From contig DASYYH010000011.1 in the NCBI GenBank assembly GCA_035934015.1, positions 310,001-374,000 of the forward strand: DNA of 64,000 bases, in the 5' to 3' direction. The notes under the pieces are model-generated. The model had not been told where the DNA came from. It saw nothing but the letters and a program-made list of their open reading frames with translations, and ran no database searches. Each line of letters starts with the position of its first letter. Position 1 is the first letter of the stretch. The position numbers and the translations under genes were made by a program. This document shows, in pieces, positions 53,849-64,000 of the stretch. This DNA is from Candidatus Acidiferrales bacterium (GTDB taxonomy: Bacteria > Acidobacteriota > Terriglobia > Acidiferrales > UBA7541).

Positions 53849-54118
53849 TTCGGCATCGCTAAATTATCAGATGCCGCGTTCCGCTTCTACGTAAAACCCA
53901 AAGCCGGTGATGCGGCGCTCGAAGTTTTCTTTACGCGACAGGCTAGGCGTAAGCGTATTGTCAGCGACCTATATTCTCGTGGGGGCTGCGAAGTCGCTGA
54001 AAAGGACCGCAGGAACCGTTCTCTGTGGGCAAATTTGTGGGTAAGAATTCTCGCGTTGCAACCACCCACTGTGACTGGGCGATGGATACTATCCTAACTG
54101 GCTTGCAGACCGTGCGCT

Positions 54119-55168
54119 TTAGCTGTTCTTTAGCCGTGGCAGCAGAGTCAGCGCGTTGTCGCGCCCAATCAGTCGGAGATCATCTTCGGAGAAGCCGAGT
54201 TTCATCATGCCTTCAGCGGTTTCGGCGAGGGGTACGAATGGATCGTCGCTGCCAAAAAGAATCTGTGTCGTGGGAACGAGACTGGTGAGTGCCGCAATAG
54301 CTGGTCGAAAGGCAGTACCAGCGATGTCGTAATGGAGGCGTTTAAGTTCGTATTCGATTCCGTTGGGGGCTTTGTCGGCGATGTTTTTAGTGGCGTATTG
54401 GTGCATACGACCGAGCAGCATCGGCACGTTTCCGCCCGCGTGCGTAAAGATGAAGCGAATATCGGGGAACTTCGCAAATGTACCTGTAAACAGCAGATTC
54501 GTGACCGCACGAGCGGTCTCTTGGGGAATCTCGAACATATACGGAGAGACATCCGGCAGCAATGTGCGGCAGCACGAGGAGATGGTCGGATGCACGAAAA
54601 CGACGGATTTGCGCCGATTGAGTTCCTCGAAAACTGGCTGGTACTCGGGATGACCCAACCACTTGTCGTCGTAGCTGGTGATTAGATGAATTCCGTCCGC
54701 CTTAAGCACGCTATAGGCGTAGTCGATTTCGCGAAGGCTCGTCTCGGTATCTGGAAGCGGGAGGGCGGCAAACAGACCGAAGCGCCCCCGGTGGCTCCGT
54801 ACCACATCGGCGGCGTATTCGTTCGCTCGCCGCGCCGCGCCCGTTGCCGCCTGTCGGTCACCGAACCAAAGAATACTCGATGTGACAGACAAAACAGCCG
54901 TCGCTACTCCGTGCTTGTCCATCACTGCTAGTGCTTGCTCCGGAGTCCAGCTATAAATTCGGCCGCCGCCCGCAACACCCGTGCCTTCTGGATGTTCAGC
55001 AAAATAGAAAGGCGGGACGAAGTGATGATGTACATCGATCAGACCGCTCTTCGGGGCGGGCGCTGTTTGCGCAAAGACCGACATGAAACGTCCAGCGCCA
55101 GAAAATGTCAGCGCACCTAATCCCGCTGCATTTTGCAAAAAGCTGCGACGGCTGTGTTTGATGTCCAC
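54119..55168 (-). CDS. Tat-exported amidohydrolase (ACMSD-like metal-dependent hydrolase)
   Basis: A 349-residue protein. The twin-arginine-like start S-R-R-S-F-L-Q-N-A-A-G-L-G-A-L indicates export folded via Tat. The catalytic TIM barrel begins I-D-V-H-H-H-F-V-P-P, the first metal-binding histidines of amidohydrolase-2/ACMSD enzymes, with later F-I-F-T-H-A-G-G-N and a D-D-P-F-V-P near the C-terminus that would hold the last metal aspartate. GTG start with an AGGAAGG Shine-Dalgarno. Probably hydrolyses or decarboxylates a small aromatic or acyl substrate. Confidence 0.85.
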   Translation of the reverse strand: MDIKHSRRSFLQNAAGLGALTFSGAGRFMSVFAQTAPAPKSGLIDVHHHFVPPFYFAEHPEGTGVAGGGRIYSWTPEQALAVMDKHGVATAVLSVTSSILWFGDRQAATGAARRANEYAADVVRSHRGRFGLFAALPLPDTETSLREIDYAYSVLKADGIHLITSYDDKWLGHPEYQPVFEELNRRKSVVFVHPTISSCCRTLLPDVSPYMFEIPQETARAVTNLLFTGTFAKFPDIRFIFTHAGGNVPMLLGRMHQYATKNIADKAPNGIEYELKRLHYDIAGTAFRPAIAALTSLVPTTQILFGSDDPFVPLAETAEGMMKLGFSEDDLRLIGRDNALTLLPRLKNS

Positions 55169-55344
55169 GGGAACCTTCCTCGCCCGGCATTCTACCTCAA
55201 AGATGCGGATCAGTAAGCGGCAGAGAGAAAGCGCTCAACATTAGCTAATTACCTTCCCGGCCGAGAGCATCTGTTTCATCTTTTGGACTCGGCGGGCGCG
55301 GAAGCACGCCAGACCTTCTAGCTAGTTTGCAGCTGTCAATTGTT

Positions 55345-56592
55345 TCATGGGATCGTGCTTGCGCGTGCCATGGCGTGCGAATCTGCAACTCGGCGCAATT
55401 TCAAACCGTAAGCCATGAAAACCACAGCAACAACTCCAAACACGAGCAGGTTGGCTCCGGCATCAATCCAGAGCAGCCCGTGCATTCCGAATCTGCCGAA
55501 GCCAAAACCATCGAGTCTGATCATGTAGAGGAGAGGGATCGTCACAATCGCGTTGAGCACGCTATACAGCGTACTGGCATCACCGGTTTCGACTCCAACA
55601 ATCTCCACGACTAACGCCGTGCTTCGCGCCCAACACAAGCCTTGCGTCACCAAGTAAAGCGCCGTTCCAGCCAGATAGATGGACGGCCGATTTGCCACCA
55701 AGAGCACGAATGCAGCAAGGGCGTTCGTCAGTCCCGCTGCCGCGTAAGTAAATCTTCGATCCCAGTTGCCGGGAATCAGAGCGCCACCGAGTGATCCCAA
55801 CGCGAGCAATGCTCCTCCACCCACGCCATTCATCCACATCACGCCGGATGTGCCCACCCCGTAATGCGAGGCGACCGCAGGCAGAAGGATCTGGGCAGCG
55901 CCCGTTCCGCCTGGTGCAAGGAGAAGAAGGGTGCCCCATCGGCGCTCCGGGGAGCGGACAACCGCCCATAACTCTTTGCCGATTTGAGGAAGGCGGCCTT
56001 GGAACCATGCAGATGGCTGGGGCGAGGGTTCAGCTATGGTGAAGGCCACAAGTCCCGGCAGAGCGACCAGAATCGCGACACATACTCCGACAGTAGCTAC
56101 AGGCACGCGCGCTGCAAGCCAGAGAATGACGGCTGCGCCGAGCGCACCTCCGCCTAACTGCCCTGCCATCATCCAACCCGCGGCTTTCGATTGAGCCGAT
56201 TCCGATAGAGTCTTCACGATCAGTCCGCCGCAAGCTGCCCCAACTAAGAAAGTGATGAGACCGCCAGCGAGGACGAGCGCAGTCATCAGAATCAAATGCG
56301 AAGCGCCGATCAACGGGAAATATAGGCAGGCAGAAAGGGCGGTGCCAAAACTCGCGAGCACCAGCCAAGTCCTGCGGCGGAACTTGATGTCCACGATGGG
56401 GGCAAAGAGGAAGCCGATGACTCCGGGCAGGTTGATGATCGAACTGATGCTGGCGATCCGATCCACCGGGACGCCAGCCTGCGCAAGTAGCAAGGGAAAG
56501 GCTGTGAAGTTGAAGCCGACCACGACGATACCGAGAGGCAGGATCAGTAGGCTGAAAAGCCAAGGCGAAGGTGGCTTGCGCAGTTCGCGCAT
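55345..56592 (-). CDS. MFS transporter
   Basis: A 415-residue polytopic membrane protein with about 12 hydrophobic helices. It has an MFS-type basic loop after helix 2-3 (V-D-I-K-F-R-R-R-T-W-L) in place of the canonical G-x-x-x-D-R-x-G-R-R, and paired domain halves. The loop between the halves (about 195-220) is hydrophilic. The overall arrangement is like the AmpG/PAT group of uptake transporters, but the assignment is tentative. The gene faces the same way as the amidohydrolase gene, 176 bp upstream of it. Substrate unknown. Confidence 0.8.
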   Translation of the reverse strand: MRELRKPPSPWLFSLLILPLGIVVVGFNFTAFPLLLAQAGVPVDRIASISSIINLPGVIGFLFAPIVDIKFRRRTWLVLASFGTALSACLYFPLIGASHLILMTALVLAGGLITFLVGAACGGLIVKTLSESAQSKAAGWMMAGQLGGGALGAAVILWLAARVPVATVGVCVAILVALPGLVAFTIAEPSPQPSAWFQGRLPQIGKELWAVVRSPERRWGTLLLLAPGGTGAAQILLPAVASHYGVGTSGVMWMNGVGGGALLALGSLGGALIPGNWDRRFTYAAAGLTNALAAFVLLVANRPSIYLAGTALYLVTQGLCWARSTALVVEIVGVETGDASTLYSVLNAIVTIPLLYMIRLDGFGFGRFGMHGLLWIDAGANLLVFGVVAVVFMAYGLKLRRVADSHAMARASTIP

Positions 56593-57054
56593 GGGCAGGA
56601 ATCATACCAGTTCTGGGGTCGTCCCAAGCTCACTGGACGAGATCAGAACTTGCGGTGCGGAATGAGCGCCGAATCGCCGCCGATCCGGTGCCCATCTCAG
56701 TACGCGCGAATCAGACACGGAAGCTGATCCGCATTGGCAGCCCCAATCTCTTTGGTTGTCATTCCGAACCGGCCGCATTTCGGCCGCGTGAGGCATGCTC
56801 GCCGTGGCGGCAATCTGCTGTTGGTTTCGAGAGTGCCTATCCTGCTCGCCCCGCTCGCGCCTGCCCGCCATGGCGACCTCCCGAGTCGCGCTATTCCCGG
56901 GTGGATGTTTGAATTCTCTGGCTCGTAACACACGCAATCAATATTCAAACTGACTCTTGCCGTACACCTGTTCGCACGCCTCACTGATTTTTCGTGACTC
57001 TCGTCATTTCATGGGTAAAAATGCCGCGGTCATAATTTTCGTGAGGAGCCTTGC
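56593..57054. other. Intergenic region with repeat
   Basis: A 462-bp gap between the divergent MFS and DPP genes. It holds the second copy of the GTTGTCATTCCGA repeat (56755-56823), and the DPP gene's GAGGAG ribosome-binding site near 57042. No convincing gene is seen in the rest. Confidence 0.5.
56755..56823. repeat. Dispersed repeat copy 2 (GTTGTCATTCCGA family)
   Basis: Begins GTTGTCATTCCGA, includes a palindromic centre CGGCCGCATTTCGGCCG, and ends GTGGCGGCAATCTGCTGTTG. Matches the copy at 45477-45546 in both ends; the centres differ. Confidence 0.55.
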
Positions 57055-59505
57055 ATGGATCGTGAATCTCGCATTTCGCGCCGCCTCTTCCTGCGAGCCA
57101 CTGCCCTGACCGGCGCCGGCGCGGCTATCACTGGCGGGCTTTCCCCGTTCCGCGAATTGGATGCCGCCGTTCCTACCCCTCCTGTTTCATCCGCCGGTTC
57201 CCAACAATCTTCCGCTCTTCCTCCCGCCTCTCTCAACGAATGGATCGAGCACATTTTTTCCTCACGCGAATTTCTCGGCGAACGTTTCGGCCCCGCGCGC
57301 TGGGATGAAGGCGGAAAATCCTTCACCATCCTTGAACGCTCCCTCGACGATGGCGAGACGCAGGAGCTTGCGCGCTACGAAACTGCAACCGGCGCGCGCA
57401 CCGTCCTTTTCTCTTCCGCCGATTTGATTCCCTCGGGCGCGAAAGTGCCTTTGCCCGTGGACGATTTCCAATGGTCGCAGGACCGCGAGAAACTCCTGAT
57501 CTACACGAACTCTGCGCGTGTCTGGCGCGAAAATACGCGCGGCGATTATTGGGTCCTCGATCGCCAGTCAAAAAAATTGCGCAAGCTCGGAGGCGACGTC
57601 GCCCCATCCACACTCATGTTTGCGAAATTTTCCTCCGATGGCTCTCGTGTCGCGTATGTTCGCGCGAATAATATTTATGTCGAGGAGGTCGCCTCCGGAA
57701 AAATCAAGCAGCTCACCCCCGACGGCAACGAAACCGTCATCAACGGCACATCTGACTGGGTCTATGAAGAAGAGTTCGACGTGCGCGATGGTTTTCGCTG
57801 GAGCCCCGATGGCCGCACCATCGCTTTTTTCCAGTTTGATTCCAGCCCCGTCCGCGAATTTTCCATGATCAACAATCTCGGCGCAGGCTTTCGCGACCCG
57901 GTCACGCAGATTCCCTATCCGGAATTCGGTGTCTATCCAAAGGTCTGGACCTACCGCATTCCTTCCGCCGGCACGCCGAATTCCAACGTTCGCATCGGCA
58001 TCGTGGACATCGATAAGGGAAACACGAAATGGCTCAACGTCGTCGGCGATTCGGAAAAATCCTATCTCCCGCGCATGGACTGGACCGGCAACGGAAATGA
58101 CATTCTTCTCCAGCACATCAATCGCCGCCAGAACCAGGATGATCTTTATCTCACCGATGGCCATAGCGGCCACACGCGTCAGATTCTCCGCGAGGAAGAC
58201 GCCGCTTGGGTTGACGTGAACGAAGATACGCGGTGGCTCGCAAAATATAATGGCTTTCTTTGGGTCAGCGAGCGCGATGGCTGGCGCCACGTTTATATCG
58301 TTGCGCGCGATGGCAGCGGTGCGCGCCTTGTCACGCGCGGCAATTTCGATGTCATCGAAGTTCTCGCCGCCGACCCTGCGCAAGACTTCCTCTACTTTAT
58401 TGCTTCGCCGGATAATGCCACGCAGCATTTTCTGTTTCGTACGCGCATGGACGGCAGCGCTGCGCCCGAGCGCCTCACTCCCGCGAGCATGCCCGGCGTG
58501 CATCACTATGATATTTCTCCGGATTGCCAGTGGGCGTTTCATTCGTATTCGTCCTTCGATGTTCCGCCGATCACCGAACTCATCAGCCTTCCCGATCATC
58601 GCGCCGTGCGCGTGATGGCCGGCAATGCAGCATTGCTTGAGAAAATAAAAGTTCTCGTCAAGCAGCCTGTGGAATTTTTTCAAGTGGATATCGGCGAAGG
58701 CGTGACGCTCGATGCGTGGATGATCAAGCCCGCCGATTTTGATCCGTCGCGCAAGTATCCGATTCTTTTCAACGTCTATGGAGAACCTGCGGCGCAAACG
58801 GTTCTCGATGCATGGCATGGCGCTGGGAGCTTGTATCATCGCGCCATCGCGAATCACGGATATCTGATCGCCTCCGTTGATAATCGCGGGACGCCCGCGC
58901 CGAAAGGACGCGCATGGCGAAAAATAATTTACGGCGCCGTCGGCGTGCTTTCTTCGAAAGAGCAAGCCGCGGCTGTGCGCGCGATTGCGAAAGATCGCTC
59001 GTACGTGGATATGGATCGCGTTGGTGTGTGGGGCTGGAGCGGCGGCGGAACAAACACTTTGAATTTGATGTTTCGCTCGCCGGAAATTTATCGCGTGGGC
59101 ATGTCCGTTGCGCCGGTTCCCGATCAGCGCATCTACGACACAATTTATCAAGAGCGCTACATGGGATTGCCGCAAGAAAATGTCGACGGCTACAGAGCAG
59201 GTTCGGCAATTAATTTCGCGGAAGGATTGCAAGGAAGACTTTTGCTCGTGCACGGCACCGGCGACGACAATGTTCACTACGCCGGATCGCAGTTGCTCGT
59301 CGATCGCATGATCGAACTTGGAAAATCTTTCGACTTCATGACGTATCCGAATCGCACGCACGGCATTTCCGAAGGCGCGGGAACCACAGTGCACATTTTC
59401 AAACTTCTCGCGCGGCATCTCATCGCGCATCTTCCTGCGGGGCCGGCGCCGCGAACGATGACGCTGTTTCTGAACGAAAAAGCGAAACAGGTTTCGCGGG
59501 GATAA
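57055..59505 (+). CDS. Dipeptidyl peptidase IV, S9 family
   Basis: An 816-residue exported serine peptidase. Twin-arginine-like leader (R-I-S-R-R-L-F-L-R-A-T-A-L-T-G) suggests Tat export. An N-terminal eight-bladed propeller (about 50-540) includes the D-W-V-Y-E-E-E-F motif that holds the substrate N-terminus in DPP IV. The C-terminal alpha/beta-hydrolase domain has G-W-S-G-G with Ser662, Asp737 in G-T-G-D-D-N-V-H, and His769 in N-R-T-H-G. It removes X-Pro or X-Ala dipeptides outside the cytoplasm, working with the S10 and cyclotransferase proteins on peptide scavenging. Confidence 0.94.
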   Translation: MDRESRISRRLFLRATALTGAGAAITGGLSPFRELDAAVPTPPVSSAGSQQSSALPPASLNEWIEHIFSSREFLGERFGPARWDEGGKSFTILERSLDDGETQELARYETATGARTVLFSSADLIPSGAKVPLPVDDFQWSQDREKLLIYTNSARVWRENTRGDYWVLDRQSKKLRKLGGDVAPSTLMFAKFSSDGSRVAYVRANNIYVEEVASGKIKQLTPDGNETVINGTSDWVYEEEFDVRDGFRWSPDGRTIAFFQFDSSPVREFSMINNLGAGFRDPVTQIPYPEFGVYPKVWTYRIPSAGTPNSNVRIGIVDIDKGNTKWLNVVGDSEKSYLPRMDWTGNGNDILLQHINRRQNQDDLYLTDGHSGHTRQILREEDAAWVDVNEDTRWLAKYNGFLWVSERDGWRHVYIVARDGSGARLVTRGNFDVIEVLAADPAQDFLYFIASPDNATQHFLFRTRMDGSAAPERLTPASMPGVHHYDISPDCQWAFHSYSSFDVPPITELISLPDHRAVRVMAGNAALLEKIKVLVKQPVEFFQVDIGEGVTLDAWMIKPADFDPSRKYPILFNVYGEPAAQTVLDAWHGAGSLYHRAIANHGYLIASVDNRGTPAPKGRAWRKIIYGAVGVLSSKEQAAAVRAIAKDRSYVDMDRVGVWGWSGGGTNTLNLMFRSPEIYRVGMSVAPVPDQRIYDTIYQERYMGLPQENVDGYRAGSAINFAEGLQGRLLLVHGTGDDNVHYAGSQLLVDRMIELGKSFDFMTYPNRTHGISEGAGTTVHIFKLLARHLIAHLPAGPAPRTMTLFLNEKAKQVSRG

Positions 59506-60059
59506 TTCAAGAAGGCGATTTTCAATTCAAGGCCGAAAAGAGACAAATTGGCCTGGTCGCGTTATTGATTACAAAGAACTTAAGGAAACTCGCCGTAAAT
59601 TGGCCTGTATGATTTTCCCCTGAATTGGACTGGTTGAGTGATTTTTGAATTTTTGTGTTTTGGGCATTCGCGAGGCGCGATGCGGCGGCGAAGTGTGCGA
59701 AAAGGCCCATAAAATGGGCCTCGCAGCGATGCCGGTGAAAATCATGCGATGATTTCAATGTGCGCGGAATCGGCAAAATGCAAAGAGACAATTCTCCAAA
59801 AAATGAGGAAATTGGGATTGCACAATTTTGGTGCAATTTGTCACTCGGACTGAGGGTGTGGTCAAACCTGCGATATGACAGGCCGCGGGAATCGAAGCCA
59901 TACCATTGCAAGAAGGACGACCTTCGGCTCTTCCGTCGTCAGGGTAAACGGGTGAAGGGCCGAAAAGGAAGGAATCGGAAACGACTCCCGCGTCGTACCC
60001 TTCGACTGCGCCCGCCGCCCGCCTAGGCGGGCACGCTCAGGATAAACTCGGGTGTAATT
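59506..60059. other. Gene-free stretch with repeats and a terminator
   Basis: Contains a minus-strand terminator-like hairpin GGCCCAT/ATGGGCC (59704-59720) followed by TTTT, a palindrome ATTGCAC..GTGCAAT near 59815-59838, and near 59999-60048 a repeat-like block: TTCGACTGCGCCCGCC, the palindrome CCCGCCTAGGCGGG, then CGCTCAGGATAAAC. No credible gene was found in the stretch. Confidence 0.5.
59699..59720 (-). terminator. Terminator downstream of the RHS array
   Basis: GGCCCAT (59704-59710) and ATGGGCC (59714-59720) form a seven-pair stem, followed on the minus strand by TTTTCGC. It is the first terminator-like structure met by transcripts from the RHS modules. Confidence 0.5.
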
Positions 60060-60333
60060 CACGCACCCGACGAAGTGGTCAGTTCGTTTTCCGCATTGTA
60101 CGTGAAGGTTATGCCGCCGGTGCCCGGAATCGTATCGAGATTCCCCGCCGCATCGTACGTGTAGCCGCTGATTTGATTCGCCGTGGTCACGCTGATGCTC
60201 AAATTATCCGGCTGCCCGCAGGACGAATAGCCCGATACTTTCGCAATCGTCAGCAGATTTGCCCAGGCATCGTAGCCATACTGCTCGCTCCAGCAATTGG
60301 TCCCGCTGGTATTGGACTCGTCGAGAATTTCTG
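60060..60333 (-). pseudogene. RHS/YD-repeat fragment (module C)
   Basis: A minus-strand stretch of about 90 codons without a start codon encodes YD-repeat sequence: Q-Y-G-Y-D-A-W-A-N-L-L-T-I, I-S-G-Y-T-Y-D-A-A-G-N-L-D-T-I and F-T-Y-N-A-E-N-E-L-T-T, then TGA. It resembles the start of the module at 63290 but cannot be expressed alone. It is directly behind the candidate immunity gene 60339-60731, so it looks like a leftover of an earlier RHS gene or of recombination. Confidence 0.7.
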
Positions 60334-60338
60334 TTCCT

Positions 60339-60731
60339 CTACGTTAACGAACGGTCGTTGCCGCTCTTGGCGTCGCTCTTGGCTTGCCGCTTCTCGATCC
60401 ACGCGCCGCGAAACCACGTGACAATGACGAGCACCAGTAGGATGATCCAAAGCGGATTGTGTTCGTTTAGAAGTCCGTGATCCAGCGCTAACCCCAACCC
60501 CGCAAAGGCGCAAGCCCCAAGTACAACGTCCGCCCGCCTCGGGCCGGTACTCCCGTGGATGAAGAAAATCATCCCCAGCACGACGCCATTCATGGCACCA
60601 CCCCACGTGTCCGCCAAGGGATTGCCCCACACGCCCGACCCAAGATAAAAAGCGTCCGCGAAACAGATGCCTGACAGCATTAAAATGATCCAACCGGGAA
60701 GACGAAATCTCATTTGATCGCCAGTCGCCAT
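60339..60731 (-). CDS. Membrane protein, candidate immunity protein for module B
   Basis: A 130-residue protein with about four hydrophobic segments (P-G-W-I-I-L-M-L-S-G-I-C-F-A, G-A-M-N-G-V-V-L-G-M-I-F-F, V-L-G-A-C-A-F-A-G-L-G-L-A-L, I-I-L-L-V-L-V-I-V-T-W) and a basic cytoplasmic tail. Its start lies 9 bases after the stop of the RHS module B ORF and has a GGTAGGA Shine-Dalgarno. Genes in that place after RHS toxins normally encode immunity proteins, so this one may protect against the B tail, perhaps at a membrane. It is not a recognised family. Confidence 0.55.
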   Translation of the reverse strand: MATGDQMRFRLPGWIILMLSGICFADAFYLGSGVWGNPLADTWGGAMNGVVLGMIFFIHGSTGPRRADVVLGACAFAGLGLALDHGLLNEHNPLWIILLVLVIVTWFRGAWIEKRQAKSDAKSGNDRSLT

Positions 60732-60740
60732 TCGATGGTC

Positions 60741-61616
60741 CTACCTATCCTCCAATGCCTTCACCAGCTCTATGGCGGCCACATGGAGCTCCAGGGAAAG
60801 TTTGAAACCTTCATACTCTTGCGCCACAGGAAAGAAGAGACCTCCAACTTCGCCAACCTTGAAGAGGTACTGAAATGGGTGCGCCTTGGCGTCGGCGGCG
60901 ACGGTACCTGGGAAGCGAGCCAGTGTTCCTCTGGTATCCATATGGCTGAAGTCCGTTCCGCCGAGCGTGCGGGTGGCTTCGGCCGAGGTCAACGTGCGCG
61001 AAGAGTTGATCGCTTGCGTTGTATACTGGTCGCCCTTCATGGTGAATGCTGTTCCCACGGTCTGGGATTGGCCGCTAATCAGGTTTCCCGCCGAGTTGAA
61101 CTTATATGTCTGCGTTGTCGCGGTCGTCGTCATGGTGATCGAGCCGTCCTTGTTCGTCGTTACATTCGCGTCAGTGCTGCGCAGCGTGACGGTCGTGACG
61201 CCATTCTTGTCGGTCTCCACCGAAAGATTCTGGGCGTTTTGGGTCGAAGATTTGCCCGTGCCTGTGCCGGTTTTTTGTCCTTCGCCTGTGGTGGCGGCAG
61301 GGCTCGGTGCAGCGGGCGTACAATTTTGGAGCGAACCTGGCAGCGCCTGCCCGCACGAAGGAGGACCATCATGCCCGTCGAGATCGGCGAAGGTCTCGGG
61401 GTTATCGCTGACCATGGCGTACAGGTTCAGCGTCTGCGGATTCGTCAGATTCGCATACGGCACCGCCTCGGGAACGGCACGGCCTATCTCCCAGGCTCCC
61501 CTTGCCGGGGACCTGGGAGCCCTTTTTGCCGCCGAAATGAACCGCCCAATCGTCGAATCGTTGTAGCGCGCCCCAAAGTTGTCCAGCCCCGTCTCCGCGT
61601 CGCGTTCCTTCCCCAT
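60741..61616 (-). CDS. Truncated RHS-core protein with variable C-terminal tail (module B)
   Basis: A 291-residue frame. Residues 1-80 are an RHS-associated core (M-G-K-E-R-D-A-E-T-G-L-D-N-F-G-A-R-Y, Y-N-D-S-T-I-G-R-F-I-S-A, L-N-L-Y-A-M-V-S-D-N-P-E-T-F-A-D-L-D-G-H). The tail (about 80-291) is unlike the tail of module A and ends in a long helical region. No Shine-Dalgarno precedes the ATG and a TGA lies nine codons upstream in frame, so it is probably not expressed by itself but is an orphan that could recombine with a full RHS gene. An in-frame 42-nt palindromic insert is found near residues 33-46. Confidence 0.65.
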   Translation of the reverse strand: MGKERDAETGLDNFGARYNDSTIGRFISAAKRAPRSPARGAWEIGRAVPEAVPYANLTNPQTLNLYAMVSDNPETFADLDGHDGPPSCGQALPGSLQNCTPAAPSPAATTGEGQKTGTGTGKSSTQNAQNLSVETDKNGVTTVTLRSTDANVTTNKDGSITMTTTATTQTYKFNSAGNLISGQSQTVGTAFTMKGDQYTTQAINSSRTLTSAEATRTLGGTDFSHMDTRGTLARFPGTVAADAKAHPFQYLFKVGEVGGLFFPVAQEYEGFKLSLELHVAAIELVKALEDR

Positions 61617-61634
61617 GAACTTGAACGCCGGATC
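61373..61634. repeat. RHS core repeat, copy in module B (262 bp)
   Basis: Roughly 87% identical in the parts compared to 62561-62780 (220 bp). The only length difference is a 42-nt insertion, of which bases 61488-61519 form a hairpin. Homology ends abruptly at GGATC (61634), the likely recombination edge. Confidence 0.75.
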
Positions 61635-61657
61635 AAGCTGTCATCTTCCATTGGGCG

Positions 61658-61921
61658 CTAATGGATTAGCCCGGCGTTCTGGAGCTGCCGTCGGGCATTC
61701 CATCCGCTTGGCGGGCGACTACGAGTGCTCCACCACGGCATCCCTTGCGCAATCCATTTCTCCCGGAGTGCTGCATGCGACGTATCTGCATCGTCGTAGC
61801 CAAATTCGGTCCCACAGCAGGGACAAATTTCGTAAGTGGGACATCCGTGCTCATCGTATGGTGGGCCATTCAATCCGGTAAATCCGCACACCGGACACTC
61901 GGTCGAAGCCCTACTGCGCAT
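61658..61921 (-). CDS. CPCC-type Cys-rich protein, candidate immunity protein for module A
   Basis: An 87-residue soluble protein with two cysteine pairs, E-C-P-V-C-G-F and E-I-C-P-C-C-G-T-E-F-G-Y-D-D, matching the cysteine-rich CPCC protein family (PF14206 type), whose members often sit next to toxin genes. Its ATG (61921) overlaps the last codons and stop of the module A RHS ORF by 11 bases, so translation is coupled. It is thus the probable antidote of toxin A. A zinc site is expected from the cysteine pairs. Confidence 0.7.
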   Translation of the reverse strand: MRSRASTECPVCGFTGLNGPPYDEHGCPTYEICPCCGTEFGYDDADTSHAALREKWIAQGMPWWSTRSRPPSGWNARRQLQNAGLIH

Positions 61922-63290
61922 TGAAGTAAGCCAGTCCATTAGTTGGCTTGAAGAACGTTCGAATGGCTCCGCTCTTACTTATGACTCCAAATTCGTTTGT
62001 GGCAGGATTATACCTGAGGATGTCGCCGTTCGGCCTGACCTTCTCGAGGACGCCTTCTAGCTTAGGTCCACTCAGGAAGTCTTTTGCGAGCGCTTCGTAC
62101 TCGCCTTCGCTTTTAGCTCCAAATTCAGCGCCGTGTTTCTCAAAGTGCGCGGCGAGGCTTGAATCGTCGGCGAAGCCCGCTTCAGCTGCCTCACCTGCAG
62201 TGCCAACGCTCTCCCCCACGGTTTCAGCGGTGGCTTCTGCCACATCGCCCGCCACTTCCTCAGGTCCTGCGGCACCATCAGTCGCAGCCATAATCATAAC
62301 TTGGACGACAACTTCGGTTTTGTGGTGTGTCAACCAGTTCCAAGTGCGCTTCCAGAAACCGGGCTTCTTCTGCTCCTTCGCTTTTTGTTGGTCAGATTGT
62401 ACGTTCGCATTTGCGCCTGCAGCCTGTTGCGAATTAGAAAGCTGCTGCCCGTCGCCTGTGTTCGACGGCGCAGGAGGCCCGTCACCTTCCCGAGCCGCCT
62501 CGGTTTGCGTACTTCCTGCGCAAAAATCGACCCAGCACAACCCCTCAGTTCCCGACAAATGCCCATCGAGATCCGCAAACGTTTCCGGGTTGTCGCTGAC
62601 CATGGCGTAGAGGTTCAGCGTCTGAGGATTGGTCAGGTTCGCATACGGCACCGCTTCGGGAACACTCGACCAGTCCGCCGAAATGAACCGCCCAATCGTC
62701 GAATCGTTGTAGCGCGCACCAAAATTGTCCAACCCCGTCTCTTCGTCGCGTTCCTTCCCCATGAATTTGAACGCCGGATCGTAGCTGTCCTTGAACTGAT
62801 GCGCTCGCCCAAACGGATAGTAGTCCGAGTCAAATCCCTGACTCACTGTTCCCGAAGAGGATACTTCCTCCAGCTTGCTCGTCGATCCCAGATGATCGTC
62901 AAAGAACCCCAGCACCGTCGATGTAGGCGTGTACACCGAAATGCGCGCGCCATCGAAAAAGATATAATCCCGCAGCATCCCGCCCGTCAGATTGGTTTCT
63001 TCCAAAGGAGCGCTGTTCAGGCCATACCAATACAGCGTGCCGCTGGATTTTTCGACGCGGTTGCCGTCGCCATCGTAGGTGTATGTCACCCCCGCCGCCG
63101 ATTTGATTTCACTCTCGGCGTTATAGCCGTAGGTGTTGGTCCCGTCGGTCAGCATGTTGCCCGCCGCGTCGTATGCCGCGCCGGTGAACGAAAGCTGATC
63201 CTTCGTTGTGGCAGAGACGCTCAGATTTTGTTCGGCCAAGCGAAAGATACTGAGCAAAACCGCACCCTTAAACATTGAAGGGTGCGCCAC
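61911..63290 (-). CDS. RHS-repeat protein with polymorphic-toxin-like C-terminus (module A)
   Basis: A 459-residue frame. YD repeats (G-N-M-L-T-D-G-T-N-T-Y-G-Y-N, Y-T-Y-D-G-D-G-N-R-V) are followed by the RHS-associated core (F-F-D-D-H-L-G-S-T, Y-Y-P-F-G-R-A, M-G-K-E-R-D-E-E-T-G-L-D-N-F-G-A-R-Y, L-D-G-H at about 230). A linker with one hydrophobic basic segment follows, then a C-terminal domain with K-H-G-A-E-F-G, V-R-P-N-G-D-I-L-R-Y-N-P-A-T-N-E-F-G-V and I-R-T-F-F-K-P. The last pattern resembles CdiA-CT/BECR-type RNase toxins. The N-terminus of a full RHS protein is missing; the start (GTG or ATG 63275) lies in a palindromic element. Confidence 0.75.
   Translation of the reverse strand: MAHPSMFKGAVLLSIFRLAEQNLSVSATTKDQLSFTGAAYDAAGNMLTDGTNTYGYNAESEIKSAAGVTYTYDGDGNRVEKSSGTLYWYGLNSAPLEETNLTGGMLRDYIFFDGARISVYTPTSTVLGFFDDHLGSTSKLEEVSSSGTVSQGFDSDYYPFGRAHQFKDSYDPAFKFMGKERDEETGLDNFGARYNDSTIGRFISADWSSVPEAVPYANLTNPQTLNLYAMVSDNPETFADLDGHLSGTEGLCWVDFCAGSTQTEAAREGDGPPAPSNTGDGQQLSNSQQAAGANANVQSDQQKAKEQKKPGFWKRTWNWLTHHKTEVVVQVMIMAATDGAAGPEEVAGDVAEATAETVGESVGTAGEAAEAGFADDSSLAAHFEKHGAEFGAKSEGEYEALAKDFLSGPKLEGVLEKVRPNGDILRYNPATNEFGVISKSGAIRTFFKPTNGLAYFNAQ
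62561..62780. repeat. RHS core repeat, copy in module A (220 bp)
   Basis: Encodes the same RHS-associated core as 61373-61634 without the 42-nt insertion. Both ends match the module B copy exactly in position, at GCCC(A/G)TCGAG and GGATC. Confidence 0.75.
63258..63284. repeat. Extragenic palindrome at the start of RHS module A
   Basis: Perfect inverted repeat CGCACCCTT..AAGGGTGCG with an eight-base loop. It is followed by CCACCC, and lies where RHS homology stops. The initiation codons of module A (GTG 63290, ATG 63275) are inside or next to it. Confidence 0.6.
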
Positions 63291-63393
63291 CCACTTCGCA
63301 AAATCCCGTTGAACGTATCGCGTAGCCTGCGCGACCCGCCTGGTACAAAAACTCCGGGGCGCTCACCCGGGGCAGGTCGTGATCTTTCCCGCT

Positions 63394-63999
63394 CTAGCCT
63401 TGATTGGCTAACTTGCTGTACTTCGCGGCTTCGTCGTACTGCCCGAGAGCATGGCAGGTAGCCGCGAGCCATTCATAGATGTTTCTGCGAGACGGATCCC
63501 TCTCCTCTTTCAAGGATAGGCAAGTTTCAAACTCCTGTCTTGCCCATCCGTGCGACTCCTGCTCGAAGTAAATGATTCCCAACCTATAGTGTGTTCTCAG
63601 TTCCAATGCACCAGACACACCCAGATCGAGAGCTTCCCTAAACCGTCGTTTTGCCTCGTCCAACTGGCCAAGATCGAGATAACAGAGCCCAAGGGAATAA
63701 GAAACCCAGTCCCATGCCGGCTCATAGGAAGCGGCCGCTTCGAGAATTGGACGTGCCTCGGCTGAACGATTCAATTGCACTAACAAGATTCCACGGAGGC
63801 TTTGAAGGTTCTCGTAGGTGTCCTTTGCCTCTAGCTCTTGCAACGTGTCTGCACAATGCGATAGAAGCCCCTCGACACGTCTGAGTGCCTCTTCGCCACG
63901 GAGTTGGTCAAACAACAAGCGCGATTCGTGAAAGCCAAGAAACACATAGGTTGGACTGCACTCAGGAACGAGCGGATAAGCTTGCTTCAACGCCCCCCA
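63394..63999 (-). CDS. TPR-repeat protein (partial at window edge)
   Basis: At least 198 codons are present and the frame stays open to the window edge, so the 5' part is missing. Three or more tetratricopeptide motifs are visible: N-R-S-A-E-A-R-P-I-L-E-A-A, W-V-S-Y-S-L-G-L-C-Y-L-D-L-G-Q-L-D-E-A-K-R-R-F-R-E-A-L and H-Y-R-L-G-I-I-Y-F. No signal sequence is available. It ends about 100 bp before the RHS module A, and is not obviously connected to it. Likely a protein-binding factor of unknown partner. Confidence 0.75.
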   Translation of the reverse strand, partial: WGALKQAYPLVPECSPTYVFLGFHESRLLFDQLRGEEALRRVEGLLSHCADTLQELEAKDTYENLQSLRGILLVQLNRSAEARPILEAAASYEPAWDWVSYSLGLCYLDLGQLDEAKRRFREALDLGVSGALELRTHYRLGIIYFEQESHGWARQEFETCLSLKEERDPSRRNIYEWLAATCHALGQYDEAAKYSKLANQG

Positions 64000-64000
64000 A

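Follow-up and report, generated by a model that had tools for sequence, protein, structure and literature searches.

On the minus strand of a 64,000-nt stretch of DNA (C11:310001-374000; in the following called the window), we found an array of truncated RHS modules that we consider likely to be orphan RHS C-terminal cassettes. Each would combine a toxin tip with the immunity gene of that tip, the tips having been exchanged over a shared core and linker, in a genome in which no full-length carrier was found. An earlier note on this DNA had described the locus as an orphan polymorphic-toxin layout. Core homology, gene linkage and recombinant mosaics support this description, and from it we infer toxicity of the tips and neutralization by their partners.

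The host genome comprises 3.37 Mb in 28 contigs, with an estimated completeness of 98.6%. The three RHS pieces previously described in a row on the minus strand (modules A and B and fragment C) are all present with their reading frames (Table 1). In the direction of transcription, the order is module D, a TPR gene, module A, a CPCC-type gene, module B, a membrane gene and fragment C. The TPR gene and the fourth RHS module, D (C11:374280-375646), carry the array beyond the end of the window. Other RHS pieces of the same genome lie on contigs C23, C6, C1 and C3. The TPR gene matches TPR models down to 8e-15, has no close homologs in the congeners searched and, judged from its position after module D, is a possible partner of tail D. 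At the orthologous site in the same-genus genome G003, which follows a peptidase gene, the array is absent and another gene is in place. Rfam gave no match within 54000-64000 and PADLOC none for the four proteins searched; weak Pfam matches to Stimulus_sens_1, LAMTOR5, FecCD, ZZ and Rad50 hook lay below cut-off and were discarded.

Table 1 Features of the RHS array, given in window positions unless a contig is named.
Feature	Position	Strand	Size or remark
TPR gene between modules D and A	63394..64000, on to C11:374209	-	271 aa
Hairpin-bearing 77-base element at the 5′ edge where module A is truncated	63260..63340	-	
Module A: end of YD repeats, Rhs_assc_core, linker, predicted toxin tip	61911..63290	-	459 aa, truncated RHS
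Tail A: predicted colicin-D-like / CdiA-CT type RNase domain	61914..62162	-	83 aa
CPCC-type candidate immunity gene, overlaps the toxin stop codon	61658..61921 (alternative longer start 61939)	-	
Module B: short RHS core piece and tail B	60741..61616	-	291 aa
Palindromic REP-like insertion in the core of module B	61490..61531	-	42 bases net, in frame
Membrane gene, putative immunity partner of tail B	60339..60731	-	130 aa
Fragment C: scrambled RHS repeat scrap, stop codon beside palindrome	60059..60343	-	
Palindromic element at the end of fragment C (TATCCTGAGC...GTCGAAGG)	59999..60045	-	module D and contig C1 have related copies

Modules A and B both match the Rhs_assc_core model TIGR03696 above its cut-off (3.7e-16 and 9.9e-9, respectively). 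Moreover, the module core is 54–57% identical to the C-terminal end of a 1659-aa RHS protein of the congener G001, with nothing corresponding to its N-terminal part. The modules can thus be regarded as displaced 3′ ends of full-length rhs genes, and the similarity to such a gene, the absence of which the earlier note had named as an argument against its own reading, is present. The cores end with ...DLDGH, beyond which the tails of A and B are unrelated. The core lengths given before (220 and 262 bp in A and B, followed by wholly different tails) hold, and the difference between them is the in-frame palindromic insertion in B. Neither module has a convincing start signal. Fragment C contains an RHS/YD repeat (PF05593, 1.5e-6 by hmmscan) and, along 185 bases, matches a C1 scrap with 95% identity. 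Reading its sequence by homologous blocks, we found it scrambled, with a late-repeat scrap (TEILDESNTSGT) joined ahead of earlier-repeat sequence. A PF05593 profile search of the own genome gave nothing at E 0.001; because it misses fragment C, which hmmscan does score, this search is insensitive to short repeats.

The tip of module A could be assigned to a toxin family. Tail A matches chain A of PDB entry 8EY4, a CDI toxin-immunity complex from E. coli O32:H37, over residues 5-83 (phmmer 6.4e-15; profile 2e-10). Its AF2 model (pLDDT 95.1) was superposed by VIA-align on 8ey4_A with a Z of 14.4 and an rmsd of 1.4, and on colicin D tRNase structures with a Z of about 8. The BECR fold is characterized by a helical start followed by a four-stranded sheet (PMC3482391), and the model of tail A shows both, with helices at residues 3-14 and 19-31, four strands and a further helix at 76-82. 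Four residues (H6, Y22, A26 and T69) are invariant across 26 aligned sequences and present in the window copy, while H10 is nearly invariant. Judged by sequence and model, tail A is a homolog of the 8EY4 CDI toxin with the predicted fold of the colicin D tRNase, and most likely it would be toxic by cutting tRNA in the manner of colicin D. The domain had no meaningful match in the Pfam scans made here and is carried by 33 of the 349 genomes of the class. It also occurs in records of Streptococcus and Faecalibacterium phages, under proteins labeled capsid, portal or hypothetical.

The CPCC-type gene that had been described as overlapping module A was confirmed as an open reading frame at the 3′ end of the module. 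A gene of this type lies directly downstream in 15/15 other strong matches to tail A from the class with downstream sequence, a count that leaves out the pair of the window and one match ending at a contig edge. Toxin and CPCC genes of the class often overlap by 4 or 22 bases. Likewise, the CPCC gene is next in all six plasmid loci inspected (two from Rhizobium and one each from Ochrobactrum, Priestia, Paenibacillus and E. coli), against a background of 7/915 for a CPCC-type ORF at random places. The CPCC gene thus tracks tail A across phyla and scaffolds; immunity genes that fail to follow the tails had been the second argument named against the reading. The CPCC proteins of the window and R. 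binae have 58% identity, and their genes share with the Ochrobactrum gene a short insert that is lacking in the standalone members of the class. Against the Pfam family Cys_rich_CPCC (PF14206), the longer window ORF reaches 11.8 bits, compared to a gathering cut-off of 24.5, and the shorter ORF is unmatched; 13 of the 15 aligned members match weakly (best 9.4e-5). The partner of the toxin in 8EY4 (chain I) is a Cys_rich_CPCC protein, which the window protein resembles by position and by its CxxC...CxxC pattern, though below the PF14206 cut-off. A search for CPCC as an immunity family gave nothing relevant among the papers covered.

A general association of CPCC genes with the tail-A domain was rejected, as only 2 of 65 in a broad set of relatives have one; in this set, secreted versions of the domain often adjoin another gene of 120-140 aa. 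Since the weaker members of the class have an apparent signal peptide and a different neighbor of 120 aa, and most relatives from the broad scan lack CPCC, the pairing belongs to the subfamily of tail A. Versions with an apparent signal peptide, observed in members of the class, are followed by a different 120-140-aa gene, often with a 4-base overlap (L072-L084; L156-L174), and one toxin domain is found with either of two immunity-like partners, the CPCC gene or the 120-140-aa gene. Many Terriglobia-class genomes carry a standalone two-gene unit in which a colicin-D-like ORF of 100-130 aa overlaps a CPCC gene (L055, L057-L064, L066-L071), followed in L052 and L049 by a third ORF. This unit has no RHS or CDI carrier and looks like an undescribed type of toxin-antitoxin system.

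The membrane gene begins 9 bases past module B, as reported before, and has a good start signal with a GGAGG-type sequence upstream. It had been called a four-transmembrane gene; four segments are plausible, while hydropathy at a cut-off of 1.4 gives three clear ones. A homolog with 84% identity lies in genome G003 beside RHS scraps, without tail B, and the dN/dS of 0.27 between the two genes shows that the membrane gene is under purifying selection. Weak homologs lie beside RHS pieces in G018 and G073. Directly upstream of these, in loci L046 and L101, we found tail-B-like sequence (26% and 29% identity), which in G073 is joined to an RHS core. At E 6e-5 and 5e-4 in a small database, this similarity is weak and by itself marginal; we accept the pair because the adjacency is repeated in two genera. 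The expected tracking of tail B by its neighbor thus holds more weakly than that of tail A, in that a weakly similar pair recurs in two other genera. Modeled alone, tail B reached a pLDDT of 58 with only the strand-rich stalk confident, and we therefore claim no fold for its tip. By analogy, its helical end and hydrophobic partner suggest that tail B is most likely a membrane-active toxin restrained by a polytopic membrane protein. In a locus from another family (L101:492-3628), two tandem RHS modules with a common core and linker have different tips and a membrane gene each.

Modules A, B and D and the module on contig C23 have core sequence in common and different tips, and their comparison points to recombination. 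Between A and the C23 module, cores that for the most part clearly differ are followed by ~130 identical linker bases and then by unrelated tips; at the protein level, the first 64 tail residues are 94% identical. Similarly, the start of the linker is common to modules B and D, whereas the tips differ. In G001, the tail of the C23 module is again found with its secreted partner gene (38% and 50% identity, respectively). The cleanest case of exchange is that of module B and a module in a sister species (G003:C183). Their cores are almost identical and carry a palindrome insertion at one and the same base, yet their tails are completely different; the case is the cleanest because the insertion shows the core to be of common descent. 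A core marked in this way in two species provides a clean natural tracer of tip exchange. The earlier note had proposed that such a layout can replace the active tip by recombination. The DNA mosaics agree with this, but as no complete carrier was found, the replacement has no obvious recipient in this genome.

The insertion in module B is missing at that place from the cores of A and D, and the frames of B, D and G003:C183 stay open despite the palindromes within them. The 77-base element has three copies in the genome, each where an RHS piece is cut off, and is the only element that is RHS-specific so far; for the insertion types, a restriction of palindromes to RHS loci was rejected, as they are also present in a 400-kb background sample. 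Further in-frame palindromic REP-like insertions in RHS sequences were seen at L011:6159-6202 and L048:7335-7431. Such insertions in RHS frames are reminiscent of the in-frame Rickettsia palindromic elements. A role of REP-like elements in the making of the modules, with tips shuffled through such elements in these Acidobacteriota in the absence of a resident carrier and the array kept as an immunity bank, appears rather improbable to us.

No RHS piece with a full N-terminus had been seen in the window, and a complete RHS gene was also sought without success in the whole draft. When 1317 residues of the G001 RHS protein, which has an apparent N-terminal signal sequence, were used as query, the genome had a counterpart only from residue 1165 on, at the modules. 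A divergent full-length RHS protein of G003 matched only on C3, by a 70-aa scrap with 93% identity, and weakly on C6. In G001, the expected layout is intact: the full-length rhs gene is followed by a small gene and then by an orphan module plus the gene for a secreted partner. Without a carrier, the delivery of the tips lacks an explanation here.

We propose that each cassette is a displaced RHS 3′ end, consisting of core and variable tip, followed by the immunity gene of that tip. Tip A would cut tRNA as colicin D does, and the CPCC protein would bind and block it, while tip B would act on membranes and be neutralized by the polytopic membrane protein. The common core and linker would provide the homology for tip swaps between modules and, in relatives owning a full-length secreted RHS carrier, also with that carrier. 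In this genome, where no carrier was found, the tips are probably silent, and the array may be kept mainly as a stock of immunity genes and a substrate for recombination; the expression of the cassettes and their present function or benefit we infer.

Part of this evidence would also fit debris, that is, 3′ ends left after the loss of a full-length RHS gene and without a present role. No carrier was found, A and B have no clear start signals, the cores are invaded by palindromes, and the lack of most of the core in module B together with the scrambled scrap C points to decay. However, the ORF of tail A is unbroken and keeps every invariant residue, the CPCC gene is intact as well, the palindrome insertions leave the frames open, and the selection on the membrane gene argues against a mere remnant. 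We consider debris a real possibility, albeit the less probable one.

It appears unlikely that tail A and the CPCC gene form an intracellular toxin-antitoxin pair instead of a delivered weapon, with the RHS part being incidental. The relatives within the class are mostly standalone pairs with toxin ORFs of 100-130 aa and no RHS part, and an intracellular role has been reported for an RHS orphan in Salmonella (PMC7043789). Here, by contrast, tail A is attached to an RHS core and linker, there are relatives that sit on CdiA-type carriers, and in the tree of the toxin domain, which is too poorly resolved to place the origin of the window copy, this copy falls outside the standalone group, if weakly (75/92). 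A carrier that is present in the organism but missing from the draft, which would make the modules ordinary orphans behind a main gene, has a similarly small chance: the 28 contigs and an RHS scrap that lies ~260 bases into contig C1 leave room for it, but the genome is nearly complete by estimate and the N-terminal two thirds of a carrier are unrepeated and should assemble, yet two different carrier queries found no trace.

Orphan RHS cassettes, as we read the array, extend this model to a lineage of Acidobacteriota known mainly from metagenomes, and one of the cassettes is given a concrete toxin type and immunity type. Across phyla, the same toxin-immunity pair, a predicted colicin-D-like RNase and a CPCC protein, turns up on scaffolds of three kinds: RHS, CDI-type and standalone.

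Orphan rhs-CT/rhsI and cdiA-CT/cdiI modules are established in Enterobacteriaceae (PMC3150448, PMC3967940). The cassettes described here share with them the truncated 3′ ends with a conserved upstream part, a variable tip and a linked immunity gene, as well as the tandem array, the toxin part without start signals and the recombination over common sequence. They differ in belonging to Acidobacteriota, in the palindromes within the cores, in the core end (DLDGH compared to DPxGL) and in the lack of a main gene in the genome, the presence of which is typical of those orphans but not defining. Tail A and the 8EY4 toxin are homologous from end to end of tail A, and each has a CPCC protein as immunity partner, but the carrier is RHS here and CdiA there, and the window CPCC protein is longer and below the Pfam cut-off. 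With colicin D/ImmD, tail A shares the predicted fold of the toxin domain at ~20% identity, whereas the partner here is a CPCC protein. Tail B resembles the ionophoric CDI toxins (PMC11630599) in its helical end and hydrophobic immunity candidate, a likeness of general character; this candidate has 130 aa and three or more hydrophobic segments, compared to immunity proteins of 72-100 aa in those systems.
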